From the NCBI GenBank assembly GCA_030040315.1, contig JASHTY010000181.1, forward strand, positions 1-48,556: DNA of 48,556 bases. Direction: 5' to 3'. Each line of letters starts with the position of its first letter. The first letter of the stretch is position 1. The translations under genes and the position numbers were made by a program. The stretch comes from Terriglobia bacterium (GTDB taxonomy: Bacteria; Acidobacteriota; Terriglobia; UBA7540). A model generated the notes under the pieces. That model made no database searches and was not told the origin of the DNA. It saw only the letters and a list, made by a program, of their open reading frames with translations. Positions 21,898-27,035 of the stretch are shown here, in pieces.

Positions 21898-21972
21898 GGC
21901 GCTATCGTCTAGGGGTTAGGACGTCAGATTCTCAATCTGAAAACCCGGGTTCGATTCCCGGTAGCGCTACCA
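21898..21972 (+). tRNA. tRNA-Glu (anticodon CTC)
   Basis: The 75-nt sequence folds as a cloverleaf. The acceptor GGCGCTA pairs with TAGCGCT (G1-T wobble). The anticodon stem TCAGA/TCTGA encloses loop TTCTCAA with anticodon CTC, and the T arm is CCGGG-TTCGATT-CCCGG. The CCA end is encoded (21970-21972). The TCGTCTAGGGG D-arm beginning is typical of tRNA-Glu. Its 3' half is the insertion target for the downstream island and remains intact. Confidence 0.97.
21928..21972 (+). other. Attachment site attL within tRNA-Glu
   Basis: These 45 bases, from the anticodon loop to CCA, recur in the same orientation at 36583-36627 (44/45) and 37631-37675 (40/45). Direct repeats of a tRNA 3' end next to an integrase remnant are the mark of site-specific integration. 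Confidence 0.9.
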
Positions 21973-22041: not shown

Positions 22042-22395
22042 CTAGTGACCACCGTCTGTGACCACCTTTTGGCTTCCCGCCATGACCCTAAATGCTCGAT
22101 CAACCGAATCCTGCTCCGGGTGACAGTAGCGGGCAGTTATCGTGACTGAGCTGTGCCCCGCGATCTTGGCAAGGGTGAAGCCATCGCAGCCGGATTCTGC
22201 CAAGTTAGTCAGGAAACTGTGGCGCAAACAGTAAATCTCAAAAGGTTTCACTTCGGACAGCTTCGAACCTTTCTTCGTGGCTTCCGAGATATCCGTCAGG
22301 GCTTTTGTGTGATACTTCTGCGCCATTCGTTGGACCAAGCGGCCGCACTTCGAGCTATTTTTGAATACGTACCGGCGGTCCCCGCCAGTATCCGA
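22042..22395 (-). pseudogene. Tyrosine recombinase (phage-type integrase), C-terminal remnant
   Basis: The minus strand encodes the catalytic C-terminal part of a tyrosine recombinase. CLRHSFLTNLAESG holds the second catalytic Arg and its His, KIAGHSSVTITARYCHP holds the GHSS motif and the likely nucleophile Tyr, and the product ends KVVTDGGH. An in-frame TGA at 22396-22398 closes the frame upstream, and no start, box I arginine or N-terminal DNA-binding domain follows. Intact enzymes have about 350-400 residues; only about 117 codons remain. The gene lies 70 nt from the tRNA CCA end and points towards it. It is almost certainly inactive. Confidence 0.88.
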
Positions 22396-23427: not shown

Positions 23428-24606
23428 TCACATAAAGTTTCTCGTGTGGTGGGCAGAGAGTCTCGTGGCTTGGAAGGAGTCAAACCCCAGACCGTGAAGG
23501 CGATCGCGCCGGGCGGCATCCATCTCGCGATGAAGGAGGAAGACTTGGCGAGCTCCGGCGCGGACTTGTTGAGGTGCAACACCTCCACCCGCAAGTATCA
23601 TCAACGCATCAGAAACATAAGGGCTGAGACCGGACACCGAGGCGAGCATTCGGCTCCGCCGTTCCACGGCCGCGGCCAGAGAGGAGCGCCGCTCGGGCTC
23701 ACGCTCGAGCACATAGCGCAGGTGCTCCATGCCAAAGGCCACGTGCCGCGCCTCATCGCGGTGGGCGAGTCTTGCGAGCGTCGCGGTCACAGGGTCAGGC
23801 GCGAATTGTTCAAGAAAAGTGAGCAGGGTGAGAAACGTTCCCTCGCCCATGACGCAGAGCAGAAACGCTGCGGTGGTAAAGTCCGGCTCCTCCAACAGAG
23901 TTTGGAGTGAGAGTTGCCCACTGTTGGCGGTGGTTCCCAGTCCGATGCCTCCGGCTTCCGCGCGCCAGGTGAACGCCTCCGCGTGGCGAGCTTCGTCGGC
24001 CACTTGAACGGCGAGCACCTCCACCACCTCACGATAGTGCGGGTGAATGCGCGGGATAAAGCGCGCGGGCACGTAAAGCGCGGCAAACTCATTCTCCGTA
24101 AGGAACGTCATGATCTGGGCGAGCGCTGCTTCCAATTCAGCGGGGAGTTTGGGCAAGCTGCTCCAGGGAATGTCTCGCGCGGCAGACCACTGGTTGGCTG
24201 CAGCCTGTTTATAGATGCTTGCCAGCTCCTGGGCCCACACGTCGCGTTTTTGGCAAAGAGTGAAAGCAAACTTCGGCCCACCCCGCTCAATCTTCCCGCC
24301 CCTTGGCGCCAAGCCCCAATTCGGGTCTGCCGATTCCGCCACATGATTGCCGGGCGCGACCACGGGTGCAGTGCCCGCGCCCTTTTCGATCCGATAGCAA
24401 TTGGGTCCGGAGCTTCCAACGTAGCAGTGGCCCTCTTCGCGGCACCACGCCCCCAATGCCTCGAAAAAATCCGATGAGTCCGCGCGCACTTCCAGCAGTT
24501 CGCCCGCGGTTAACCCGGCGAGCGCCCGCCGCAAAAGCACAGGCGTGCCCTCATGGATGGCGAGATCCTCAAGATCGATCTGTGCTTTTGGAGATTGTTC
24601 GGGCAT
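23428..24606 (-). CDS. TusA-like domain fused to a diiron ferritin-like domain
   Basis: I prefer the ATG at 24606 (392 residues) to an in-frame TTG at 24636; either way the start overlaps the PhnD-like gene. Residues about 10-75 resemble a TusA/SirA domain (LLRRALAGLTAGELLEVRAD, AWCREEGHCYV), but the sulfur-carrying CPxP motif is missing (HEGTPV instead). Residues about 155-320 form a helical ferritin-like domain with ligands in two repeats: E171/E173 then DEARH (204-208), and E255 then DEARH (284-288). That set is expected for a non-haem diiron site, as in AurF-like oxygenases and ferritin-like oxidases. I infer an O2-dependent oxidase or oxygenase; the TusA-like part may bind a partner. It is the last gene of a three-gene operon. 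Confidence 0.8.
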   Translation of the reverse strand: MPEQSPKAQIDLEDLAIHEGTPVLLRRALAGLTAGELLEVRADSSDFFEALGAWCREEGHCYVGSSGPNCYRIEKGAGTAPVVAPGNHVAESADPNWGLAPRGGKIERGGPKFAFTLCQKRDVWAQELASIYKQAAANQWSAARDIPWSSLPKLPAELEAALAQIMTFLTENEFAALYVPARFIPRIHPHYREVVEVLAVQVADEARHAEAFTWRAEAGGIGLGTTANSGQLSLQTLLEEPDFTTAAFLLCVMGEGTFLTLLTFLEQFAPDPVTATLARLAHRDEARHVAFGMEHLRYVLEREPERRSSLAAAVERRSRMLASVSGLSPYVSDALMILAGGGVAPQQVRAGARQVFLLHREMDAARRDRLHGLGFDSFQATRLSAHHTRNFM

Positions 24607-25429
24607 AGAACCTGAATCTTTCGACGGCGCGCTCAAGCTGGCCGTAGCCGGTCGTGCGGGCGGGCAGCCACCGTTTCAAGCCCTCGAGTTCCATCAACGC
24701 GCGCACTTCCGGGTCCTCGAAGGACATGCCCAACAGGGTCTCCACAAAAGGCTGCCAGCGCTCCCGCATCAGGTCAGCCCGAACTGTGAAGTTGCAATGA
24801 TCAAAGTGTGCGGTAGACGCCAGTATGCGCGTTGTTCCGGGGTCGAGTGTGCCTTCATTGATGAACACCGTGTAGTTCCCGTCCAGCAGGCAGGCTGCGT
24901 CCACCTTTCCTGCGGCCAACGCCCGCGCCGCATCGCGCTCGCCGCCTACGTGGTCGCCGTGTTTGCCGACCATGACATTATGGTACAGAACGTGGCACTG
25001 CTCTCCCGGGACCACTCCGGCCTCGGCCAGCAGCAAGAGCGGAATCAGAGTCGCTTGCGGGGAATCGGACGCGCCTACAGCAATGGTCTTCCCTTTGAGA
25101 TCACCGAGACTCATAAAGCCAGAATCTCTACGCACTACAATCTTGGACGTCAGGTCGCGGTCCGAGTCGCGCATGGCGATAGCGCGACATCCCTTTCGAC
25201 TGTCAAGCTGGCTCTTGACCCAGGCCAGAGGAGAATTCCACGCCACATCAATTTCCCCGGAAAGACTCGCCGCGACTTGGGCATCGTAATTAGAGAAGAG
25301 GACGTAGTCGATGGCCGCGCCGTGCGCCGCAAAATAGGGCACGAAGCCTTCCCAAATGGTCACAACCTTCGGATCGTAAGCAACGGCCCCCACGCGCAGC
25401 GGGCCGGCAGGGGTTCGAATTGCGGTCAT
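24569..25429 (-). CDS. PhnD/SsuA-like substrate-binding protein without signal peptide
   Basis: The 286-residue protein starts at an ATG with AAGGAGGG upstream. It has the periplasmic-binding-protein type 2 fold of the phosphonate/aliphatic sulfonate binding family: VGAVAYDPKVVTIWEGF, SGEIDVAWNSPLAWV and LKGKTIAVGASDSPQATLI. It has no signal peptide or lipobox, and no ABC permease or ATPase lies nearby. It therefore probably works inside the cell as a ligand sensor, carrier or enzyme, like ThiY/THI5-related members of this fold. It lies between the flavoprotein and diiron genes, overlapping the latter by 38 nt. Confidence 0.82.
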   Translation of the reverse strand: MTAIRTPAGPLRVGAVAYDPKVVTIWEGFVPYFAAHGAAIDYVLFSNYDAQVAASLSGEIDVAWNSPLAWVKSQLDSRKGCRAIAMRDSDRDLTSKIVVRRDSGFMSLGDLKGKTIAVGASDSPQATLIPLLLLAEAGVVPGEQCHVLYHNVMVGKHGDHVGGERDAARALAAGKVDAACLLDGNYTVFINEGTLDPGTTRILASTAHFDHCNFTVRADLMRERWQPFVETLLGMSFEDPEVRALMELEGLKRWLPARTTGYGQLERAVERFRFYARTISKSTDRS

Positions 25430-25451
25430 AAGCCAAATCCCTCCTTCTGGG

Positions 25452-26600
25452 TTAGAACAGCGGAATTCCCAAACATGCTTTGCCCAGGAATTCCTTCAGA
25501 ACGTCGGTTGCCGGCGCCATCACCGCAGCCGCCTGCGCGTCGCGAAATACCCGCTCCAAGCCGCCCCGTTTTCCATACGCCGACCCTCCCCCCAGTGTCA
25601 TGGCGCGGGAAGTGACGGCGAGAGCCGCTTCCGCGGCCTTGGCCTTGATGCCGAGGATATCGAGCATCGCTTCCGGGTCGCCGCTTCCGGCGCGGCGCAA
25701 TGTTTCCGCAAGGTAAGCACGCGCCGACCGCAGCTCCAGTGCCATTTCCGCGGCCAGGAACTGCACGCGCGGAATCGCTGCCAGGGGGGCACTGCCGGCG
25801 TGCTCATACTTTCGTGTGGTAACGTGCGCCGAGGAAAGCTGGAATGCGGCGCCTGCGATCCCCAGTGAAACCGCCGCGGCGCCAATTTGAAAATTCGGGA
25901 GCACCACCCCCATCATGGTTTGAAATCCGCTCCCTTCGGGCCCCAGGCGGTCCTGGTCGCGCAGTTCCACGCTGTCAAGTTTCATGGGCGCGCTGGCATT
26001 CCCGGCCAGACCAAGACCTTCGAAAGATTTTCCGACCTCAAAGCCCCTGGTACCCTTTGCCACAAGATACAGATCTAAATCCGTGGGACCGACGGCGCCC
26101 GCCTTGCGGGTGGAAACCACATAGCTGTCTGCTTCACCCGCGCTGGTTACAAAACTCTTTTGAGCCTCCAGGCGAAGCCCGTCGCCGTTCCGCGTGACCT
26201 CACTGACGGGCATATAGAAGTGACCCCCCGAGCCTGCCTCACTGAATGCCAGCGTCGTCAGGTGTTCGCCGCGCGCGATGGCTGGAAGCAGGCTTCGTTT
26301 GAGCTCGTTGCTGCCCTTGGCCACGATCACTGCCGTTCCACAGCAATGCATCAGAGTAACCATGGCGGTCGAGGCGCATGCTGCGCCGAGCGTCTCAAGC
26401 GCCCGAGCCGCATCGGCCATACTGCCGCCGGCCCCTCCATACTCGACGGGGACGGTAAGCCCCAAAAGGCCGGCTCGGCCTAGTTCCTGAATATTCAATC
26501 GCGGAAAACTGCGCGAGAGGTCAACTTCGTCAGCACGGGGAGCCAAAACTTCCTTAGACAATCTCTCGTTCGCCGCGAGTAACTCTTGAATAGTCGTCAT
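25452..26600 (-). CDS. Acyl-CoA dehydrogenase-like flavoprotein, catalytic Glu not found
   Basis: The 382-residue product starts at an ATG with GGAGG 7 nt upstream and leads the operon. It has the ACAD domains in order: N-terminal helices (to about 110), the beta domain with LAFSEAGSGGHFYMPVSEV and KSFVTSAGEADSYVV for flavin contact, and the C-terminal helices (from about 225). The position of the usual catalytic Glu (EGT in medium-chain enzymes) reads AVMAPATDVLKEF, and the alternative Glu site of isovaleryl-CoA-type enzymes is also not acidic (VLPNFQIGAA). It may therefore be a flavin monooxygenase-like or otherwise altered ACAD rather than a beta-oxidation enzyme. No CoA-ligase, thiolase or ETF gene is near. 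Confidence 0.85.
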   Translation of the reverse strand: MTTIQELLAANERLSKEVLAPRADEVDLSRSFPRLNIQELGRAGLLGLTVPVEYGGAGGSMADAARALETLGAACASTAMVTLMHCCGTAVIVAKGSNELKRSLLPAIARGEHLTTLAFSEAGSGGHFYMPVSEVTRNGDGLRLEAQKSFVTSAGEADSYVVSTRKAGAVGPTDLDLYLVAKGTRGFEVGKSFEGLGLAGNASAPMKLDSVELRDQDRLGPEGSGFQTMMGVVLPNFQIGAAAVSLGIAGAAFQLSSAHVTTRKYEHAGSAPLAAIPRVQFLAAEMALELRSARAYLAETLRRAGSGDPEAMLDILGIKAKAAEAALAVTSRAMTLGGGSAYGKRGGLERVFRDAQAAAVMAPATDVLKEFLGKACLGIPLF

Positions 26601-27035
26601 GAAATAACCTCCGTGGATCTGAATTGATTTGTTGAAGCGCTGGCCTGGGGTAAGCTCGTCAAAACCTCGAACCGACGGCTGCGATCAGCGGCCAAACCTG
26701 ACTCACTGGCGACAACCCACCAAGGGTTCGGTTGGCAGGTGCGCACGCGTGTCGCTACCCGATGTTGCATTGAGAATGTTGAGGAAACGGCCGCCGGACG
26801 TTTATGCTTCAGGCGTTCAAGTGAATCCCTGGGGTTTTATCCGGCAAGGCGAGTGAACGCGGTGGGTCTTGCGCCTTATGACCATTTGATCTGCAACTGC
26901 CAAGGTCTTTGCTCCCCTTCAATCGCTGGGATGGCAGGGCGGAATTATACTTTTCCCTATGACGCTTGCCAAGACCGCGAAAACCCGAGACGTTCCTATT
27001 GCGGATTGAAGTCACACTCATATGACGCTCCGCCA
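26601..27035. other. 435-bp gene-free stretch with one folded element
   Basis: No credible gene is seen. It is the leader side of the ACAD operon (minus) and lies after the RND gene stop. GCGACA (26709-26714) and TGTCGC (26750-26755) form a 6-bp stem around a small hairpin, ACCC (26715-26718) with GGGT (26724-26727). This could be part of a leader RNA of the ACAD operon about 110-150 nt before its start. I do not recognise it as a known riboswitch. Confidence 0.4.

Follow-up and report, generated by a model that had tools for sequence, protein, structure and literature searches.

Which task could join a flavoprotein of the acyl-CoA dehydrogenase (ACAD) fold, a cytosolic binding protein of the PhnD fold and a diiron protein in a single module? 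The question is raised by a 48,556-nucleotide (nt) stretch of DNA from a Terriglobia bacterium of the Acidobacteriota (GenBank assembly GCA_030040315.1, contig JASHTY010000181.1; hereafter, the window). Three adjoining genes on its minus strand encode, in this order, an ACAD-fold flavoprotein (gene 1, 382 amino acids, 25452–26600), a PhnD-fold substrate-binding protein (SBP) lacking a leader peptide (gene 2, 286 amino acids, 24569–25429) and a TusA-like domain fused to a ferritin-like diiron domain (gene 3, 392 amino acids, 23428–24606). We find that this triad is a widespread three-component module, present in many bacteria that use oxygen and almost certainly associated with selenium, for which we found no counterpart among described systems. 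Our preferred reading, to which we assign a probability of about 0.5, is that it forms an O2-dependent selenium-supply module upstream of the selenophosphate synthetase SelD; here, the link to selenium is strong and the chemistry is proposed. Which compound donates selenium to SelD in the cell is, to our knowledge, unsettled, and a triad embedded in sel operons across phyla represents a directly testable candidate for selenium supply.

Conservation and selenium context of the triad

We assembled relatives of the locus together with loci from named genomes (among the matches listed; 542 encoding stretches) and searched each of them for all three proteins, using a codon-usage caller to define genes in GC-rich loci. 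Co-occurrence of the three genes across genomes had been set beforehand as a test of the preliminary description, which had proposed a single module in the order ACAD-SBP-TusA/diiron. The open reading frames were confirmed, and 79 of 93 homologous loci proved to contain the complete triad arranged in this way. These loci represent at least six phyla (Acidobacteriota, Pseudomonadota, Actinomycetota, Myxococcota, Planctomycetota, and Chloroflexota). Pairwise identity matrices, one per protein, correlate with r = 0.80–0.86, which together with the conserved order contradicts the notion that they are chance neighbors. Distant Acidobacteriota loci have essentially nothing but the triad in common among their neighboring genes. 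In four loci (L058, L068, L073, and L081), genes 2 and 3 were found and an ACAD was not.

When neighboring genes were clustered without regard to function, the top clusters beyond the triad corresponded to SelA, SelD, SelB, and formate dehydrogenase (L024 had been wrongly assigned to the SelA cluster and was excluded from the counts). A selA, selB, selD, or tRNA-Sec gene is located no more than 6 kb from the triad in 20 of 80 named loci; assuming a background of 1%, and with loci that are not fully independent, the binomial probability of this count is 2e-22. The sel-linked loci fall into three phyla, Pseudomonadota, Actinomycetota, and Myxococcota, with Burkholderiales, Azoarcus, Novimethylophilus, Peristeroidobacter, Streptomyces, Microtetraspora, Actinomadura, Nonomuraea, and Mycobacterium as well as an acidimicrobial and a Kofleriaceae genome among the hosts. 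The triad is found between selA and selB in a Variovorax locus (L041), with gaps of ~25 and ~17 nt, and a Mycobacterium locus (L085) reads fdhA, fdhB, a putative third fdh gene, the triad, selD on the opposite strand, tRNA-Sec, selA, and selB. Of six modules recovered in a draw of Burkholderiaceae genomes, four are at most 15 kb away from selD, and for three of these the distance is no more than ~2.5 kb.

The association extends to genome content. Among 50 named genomes that encode a relative of gene 3, 49 have a SelD match exceeding the cut-off of its family, and the exception (G312) has SelU. We next considered 80 genomes, 79 with the module and one Latescibacterota genome (G337) with a relative of the diiron protein only. 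At least one selenium-utilization gene (SelD, SelA, or SelU) is present in all 80, and SelA in 71. Six of the nine SelA-less genomes have SelU (four Nitrosomonas-type genomes, a Massilia, and G312), and the remaining three (G297, G302, and G617) have SelD. Because most SelA-less module genomes thus have SelU, the module appears to track the selenophosphate step and not selenocysteine alone. In unbiased draws, the module never occurred in a SelD-less genome: SelD is found in 15/15 module genomes of Mycobacteriales as compared with 177/250 overall (p = 0.005), in 6/6 as compared with 134/199 in Acidobacteriota (p = 0.09), and in 6/6 as compared with 182/201 in Burkholderiaceae, where the comparison has no power. 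The genome from which the window originates encodes both SelD (G000:C239) and SelA (G000:C449). A closer relative (G052) has SelA and no SelD match. The preliminary description had proposed a small molecule containing sulfur, phosphorus, or nitrogen as the substrate; a small molecule is still what we envision, and the list of elements was incomplete, as neighborhood and genome co-occurrence together point to selenium.

In one of the three genomes with SelD and neither SelA nor SelU, that of Actinomadura montaniterrae (G302, locus L051), we found two SelD matches in addition to the module. It is a possible candidate site for another use of selenophosphate.

The three proteins and their locus

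The gene 1 product matches the N, M, and C domains of Acyl-CoA_dh, all above the Pfam cut-off, and thus has the three-domain ACAD fold. The catalytic glutamate of the YEGTSE motif aligns to Ala-362, in a column occupied by Ala, Gly, or Ser in 80/80 homologues, and the alternative base position on helix G is Phe-237, again a Phe in 80/80. With no glutamate at either known base position, ordinary acyl-CoA dehydrogenation is unlikely. Enzymes of the SfnB and DszC type are among the NCBIfam relatives of the protein. In a single Chloroflexota locus, a gene for an NADPH-dependent flavin mononucleotide (FMN) reductase follows ~14 nt after the triad, which would fit a reduced-flavin oxygenase role for the ACAD; we rejected a flavin reductase beside the triad as a general rule, since this is the only such locus. 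In L021 and L032, the ACAD is just 40% identical to that of the window, the SBP 69–74%, and the diiron protein 67–69%. The ACAD there seems to have been swapped for another flavoprotein, as judged from these identities.

The gene 2 product has a Phosphonate-bd Pfam match with E = 3e-34, and its predicted model (predicted local distance difference test score, pLDDT, 93.5) matches the folds of PhnD, PtxB, HtxB, and the arsenic sensors AioX and ArrX. In nearly all loci, the nearest start codon is found ~0–13 residues ahead of the first strand, leaving no room for a leader. We aligned the SBP sequence to PhnD/PtxB proteins to analyze its pocket. Phosphite-binding proteins hold the oxyanion with an STS-H motif and cover the ligand with a capping Tyr (PMC5700983). 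In the module SBP, STS is replaced by Ser-Pro-Gln, the capping Tyr by Cys-212, and the preceding residue by His-211. His-211 and Cys-212 are invariant across 78 SBP homologues; the counterpart of the STS-H histidine is ambiguous, as it could be His-157 or Glu-164, both of which are invariant. Such a thiol-imidazole pair where the ligand is predicted to sit would favor a soft ligand or covalent chemistry.

The gene 3 product yields only sub-threshold Pfam matches (TusA, DUF455, ribonucleotide reductase small chain, and AurF), with a TusA score of 25.1 against a cut-off of 28.6. Its TusA-like domain (residues 8–74, 24385–24585, minus strand) lacks the CPxP cysteine throughout the family, and Cys-55 is dispensable (69 Cys, 12 Ala, 3 Ser, and 1 Gly among homologues). 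With the active cysteine lost, we infer that this domain is more likely to serve in docking than in a sulfur relay. The core helices of the diiron domain (residues 156–302, 23701–24141, minus strand) contain both DEARH motifs and conform to the Glu, ExxH, Glu, ExxH ligand pattern of the ferritin-like diiron four-helix fold. The ligands Glu-171/Glu-173, Glu-205, His-208, Glu-255, Glu-285, and His-288 are invariant or almost so in 85 sequences. In the predicted model (pLDDT 95.3), the fold of the C-terminal domain is similar to those of R2-like oxidases and VlmB. Five Latescibacterota loci (L103, L105, L107, L108, and L093) encode a free-standing relative of the diiron domain, with no TusA part, ACAD, or SBP, and a 503-amino acid reading frame in L031 (9582–11093) has a TusA-like N terminus resembling that of gene 3 and no diiron match; it adjoins another TusA-like reading frame. 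A search of plasmids with the diiron protein gave no match.

Most of what the preliminary description had reported for these proteins is borne out by the wider alignments: an ACAD devoid of its catalytic Glu (no acidic residue at either position in the 80 aligned homologues), a leaderless and hence cytosolic SBP, and a TusA-like domain with no CPxP motif joined to two DEARH motifs. It had also noted that no ABC transporter accompanies the SBP, and indeed we found no transporter gene within the triad, either in the window or in the homologous loci. The 38-nt overlap that it described between genes 2 and 3 (24569–24606, minus strand) is correct given that gene 3 starts with the ATG at 24606, from which the frame runs to the stop at 23428. 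The same junction overlaps by 8 nt in the close relatives L019, L020, L021, and L022, which indicates that the coupling is conserved and that the 38 nt in the window reflect a local extension of gene 2. Ribosome-binding-like GGAGG sequences are seen by eye on the minus strand ahead of gene 1 (26608–26612) and gene 2 (25440–25444). Just downstream of the module, a tRNA-Glu gene (21898–21972, plus strand), the sole match in an Rfam scan of the window, adjoins a C-terminal tyrosine-recombinase fragment (22042–22338, minus strand). The two together are a possible candidate for an island boundary. Among genomes of the same genus, the module is only patchily present.

A proposed supply route ahead of SelD and its alternatives

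How might the three proteins act together? We propose that they provide a cytosolic, oxygen-dependent selenium supply ahead of SelD. The leaderless SBP, its oxyanion pocket rebuilt around the invariant His-Cys pair, would hold a small selenium compound. The ACAD-fold protein would be a flavin mono-oxygenase or oxidase and not an acyl-CoA dehydrogenase, and together with the diiron domain it may free selenium oxidatively, for instance through cleavage of a carbon-selenium bond. The TusA-like domain would dock the complex to a receiver, and selenium would pass to SelD and from there to selenocysteine or tRNA selenouridine. The presence of the module in SelU-only genomes suggests that it acts in the segment common to both of these uses of selenium, either at SelD or ahead of it. 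A more elaborate version, in which an environmental, probably organic, selenium compound reaches SelD by the O2-dependent route with the cytosolic SBP as carrier, and in which a radical S-adenosylmethionine (SAM) counterpart (Rv1679-Rv1681) operates on the same core, is tentative and somewhat less probable than the supply role itself. A 2022 review states that a high-affinity selenium transport system has not been identified (PMC9312934).

The operon, the strict linkage of the three genes, the residues kept and lost, and the tie to sel genes in neighborhoods and in genome content are observed; the position upstream of SelD, the substrate or ligand, the cofactor, the O2 chemistry and activity, and the role of each part are proposed. 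Several observations weigh against this supply reading. Just a quarter of the named loci adjoin sel genes, and SelD is nearly or mostly ubiquitous in Burkholderiaceae and Acidobacteriota, which leaves these strata without power. Most genomes with SelD do not contain the module (it is present in 15 of the 177 in Mycobacteriales), and it is therefore an accessory. The main caution against equating the chemistry of the ACAD-SBP core with selenium comes from plasmid copies of a sister version, in which a radical SAM protein is the partner and no annotated sel gene is found nearby.

The most serious alternative, although we consider it unlikely, places the module downstream of SelD, in the making of a selenium-containing small molecule or cofactor. 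Oxygenase-like enzymes would suit such a biosynthesis, and the three genomes with the module and SelD but neither SelA nor SelU could be explained in this way; a 2016 paper treated orphan SelD as pointing to an unknown trait (PMC5029168). A separate trait would, however, have no need for the SelA or SelU that is also present in 77 of the 80 genomes, and it is difficult to reconcile with triads inside selA-selB operons or with an SBP whose relative is transporter-linked.

The frequent presence of fdhA, fdhB, fdhC, and fdhE next to the triad raises the idea that the module assists in making or protecting selenocysteine-containing formate dehydrogenase under aerobic conditions. We regard this as improbable: the Nitrosomonas-type and Massilia genomes contain the module and SelU but no SelA, and a selenoprotein is thus not required there. 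Equally improbable is a role in selenium detoxification or sensing, in which the module would oxidize or bind excess selenium. The fold that its SBP shares with AioX and ArrX speaks for such a function, but the neighbor clusters contain incorporation genes and no known efflux or resistance genes. The sister loci that lack annotated sel genes nearby, and the SfnB and DszC relatives of the ACAD, could be taken to indicate a general pathway for sulfur or phosphonates that shares sel operons by accident or serves several elements. This appears slightly less probable still, given that a selenium-utilization gene is present in 80/80 genomes, that the linkage arose in three phyla, and that the oxyanion motif has been lost. 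Finally, that the locus simply contains an ordinary acyl-CoA dehydrogenase and a phosphonate-binding gene as chance neighbors is suggested by Pfam family names only and is highly improbable in view of the strict three-gene order across phyla and the family-wide loss of the catalytic Glu and the oxyanion motif.

Relation to known systems

We compared the module to described systems that share one or more of its parts. The preliminary description had named no matching pathway, and we found none in the open-licence literature, although a description elsewhere is possible. The selenium candidates reported in 2015 (YedE, YedF, LysR_Se, and DUF3343; PMC5322559) do not include the present module, and searches for its parts in the 2016 paper (PMC5029168) and in reviews from 2022 and 2026 did not find it. 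YedF (TusA/SirA-DsrE) resembles gene 3 in that a TusA-like domain occurs in a selenium-linked protein with a sel genomic context, but YedF retains the CPxP motif and carries a DsrE domain, whereas gene 3 has lost CPxP and its second domain is a diiron domain. R2-like ligand-binding oxidases, VlmB, and AurF have the ferritin-like diiron fold and ligand pattern in common with gene 3, which differs from them in its N-terminal TusA-like domain, in its other operon partners, and in sequence (~20% identity or less).

The SBP shares its fold with PtxB, HtxB, PhnD, and AioX but is cytosolic and has Cys-212 in place of the cap Tyr, His-211 before it, and SPQ for STS. We thus rejected membership among the phosphonate/phosphite binding proteins, as STS motif, cap Tyr, leader, and ABC partners are all missing. 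When Rv1680 is set aside, the best NCBIfam match of the window SBP is to TIGR04553 ("putative selenate" ABC transporter SBP), which again has the same fold but possesses a leader, ABC partners, an STS motif, and an Asp-Tyr cap, none of which is found in the module SBP. An SBP of the TIGR04553 type and its ABC genes adjoin selD near the module in two Variovorax loci (L055 and L059), and in Sphaerotilus such an SBP is part of an mnmH-ABC-permease-SBP-selD cluster. We infer that periplasmic (TIGR04553) and cytosolic (module) SBPs of one fold serve the same element. The TIGR04553 transporter with selD and mnmH (L131, 2334–7784; L055 and L059, 9.4–13.2 kb) is itself a candidate selenium importer.

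The system closest to the module is that of the Rv1679 (FadE16), Rv1680, and Rv1681 families (NF049984, NF049985, and NF049973 in NCBIfam), which are uncharacterized and named after Mycobacterium tuberculosis genes. We found nothing in the open-licence literature on the function of Rv1679, Rv1680, FadE16, MoeX, or TIGR04553. The window proteins fall short of the curated cut-offs for Rv1679 (364 vs. 600 bits) and Rv1680 (241 vs. 400 bits), and membership was thus rejected. A functional assignment of the module would inform these families, and it would correct automatic annotations as acyl-CoA dehydrogenase and phosphonate-binding protein. Both systems have the ACAD-SBP order, a leaderless SBP, GKHGD and His-Cys motifs, and an ACAD without Glu. 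They differ in that the third partner in the Rv1679-Rv1681 system is a radical SAM protein and an Rv1678-type membrane protein precedes the genes. Mycolicibacterium vanbaalenii encodes three proteins above the Rv1679, Rv1680, and Rv1681 cut-offs, again preceded by an Rv1678-type membrane protein. We located this sister arrangement in Miltoncostaea, Mycolicibacterium, and Rhodococcus (L128, 5874–9874; L129, 4931–8805; L130, 4898–7846). In the Rhodococcus locus, the ACAD and SBP are visible before the record ends, and the intervening gene in Miltoncostaea encodes a DUF2515 protein. Carboxymuconolactone decarboxylase-like, deiodinase-like, and glutaredoxin genes are found beside the radical SAM version in L129 (1327–3297). 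On actinobacterial plasmids, the radical SAM gene follows ACAD and SBP directly or, in Miltoncostaea, after one gene. Other enzyme pairs likewise have O2-dependent and O2-independent versions, and the ACAD-SBP core can be paired with a diiron protein or with a radical SAM protein.

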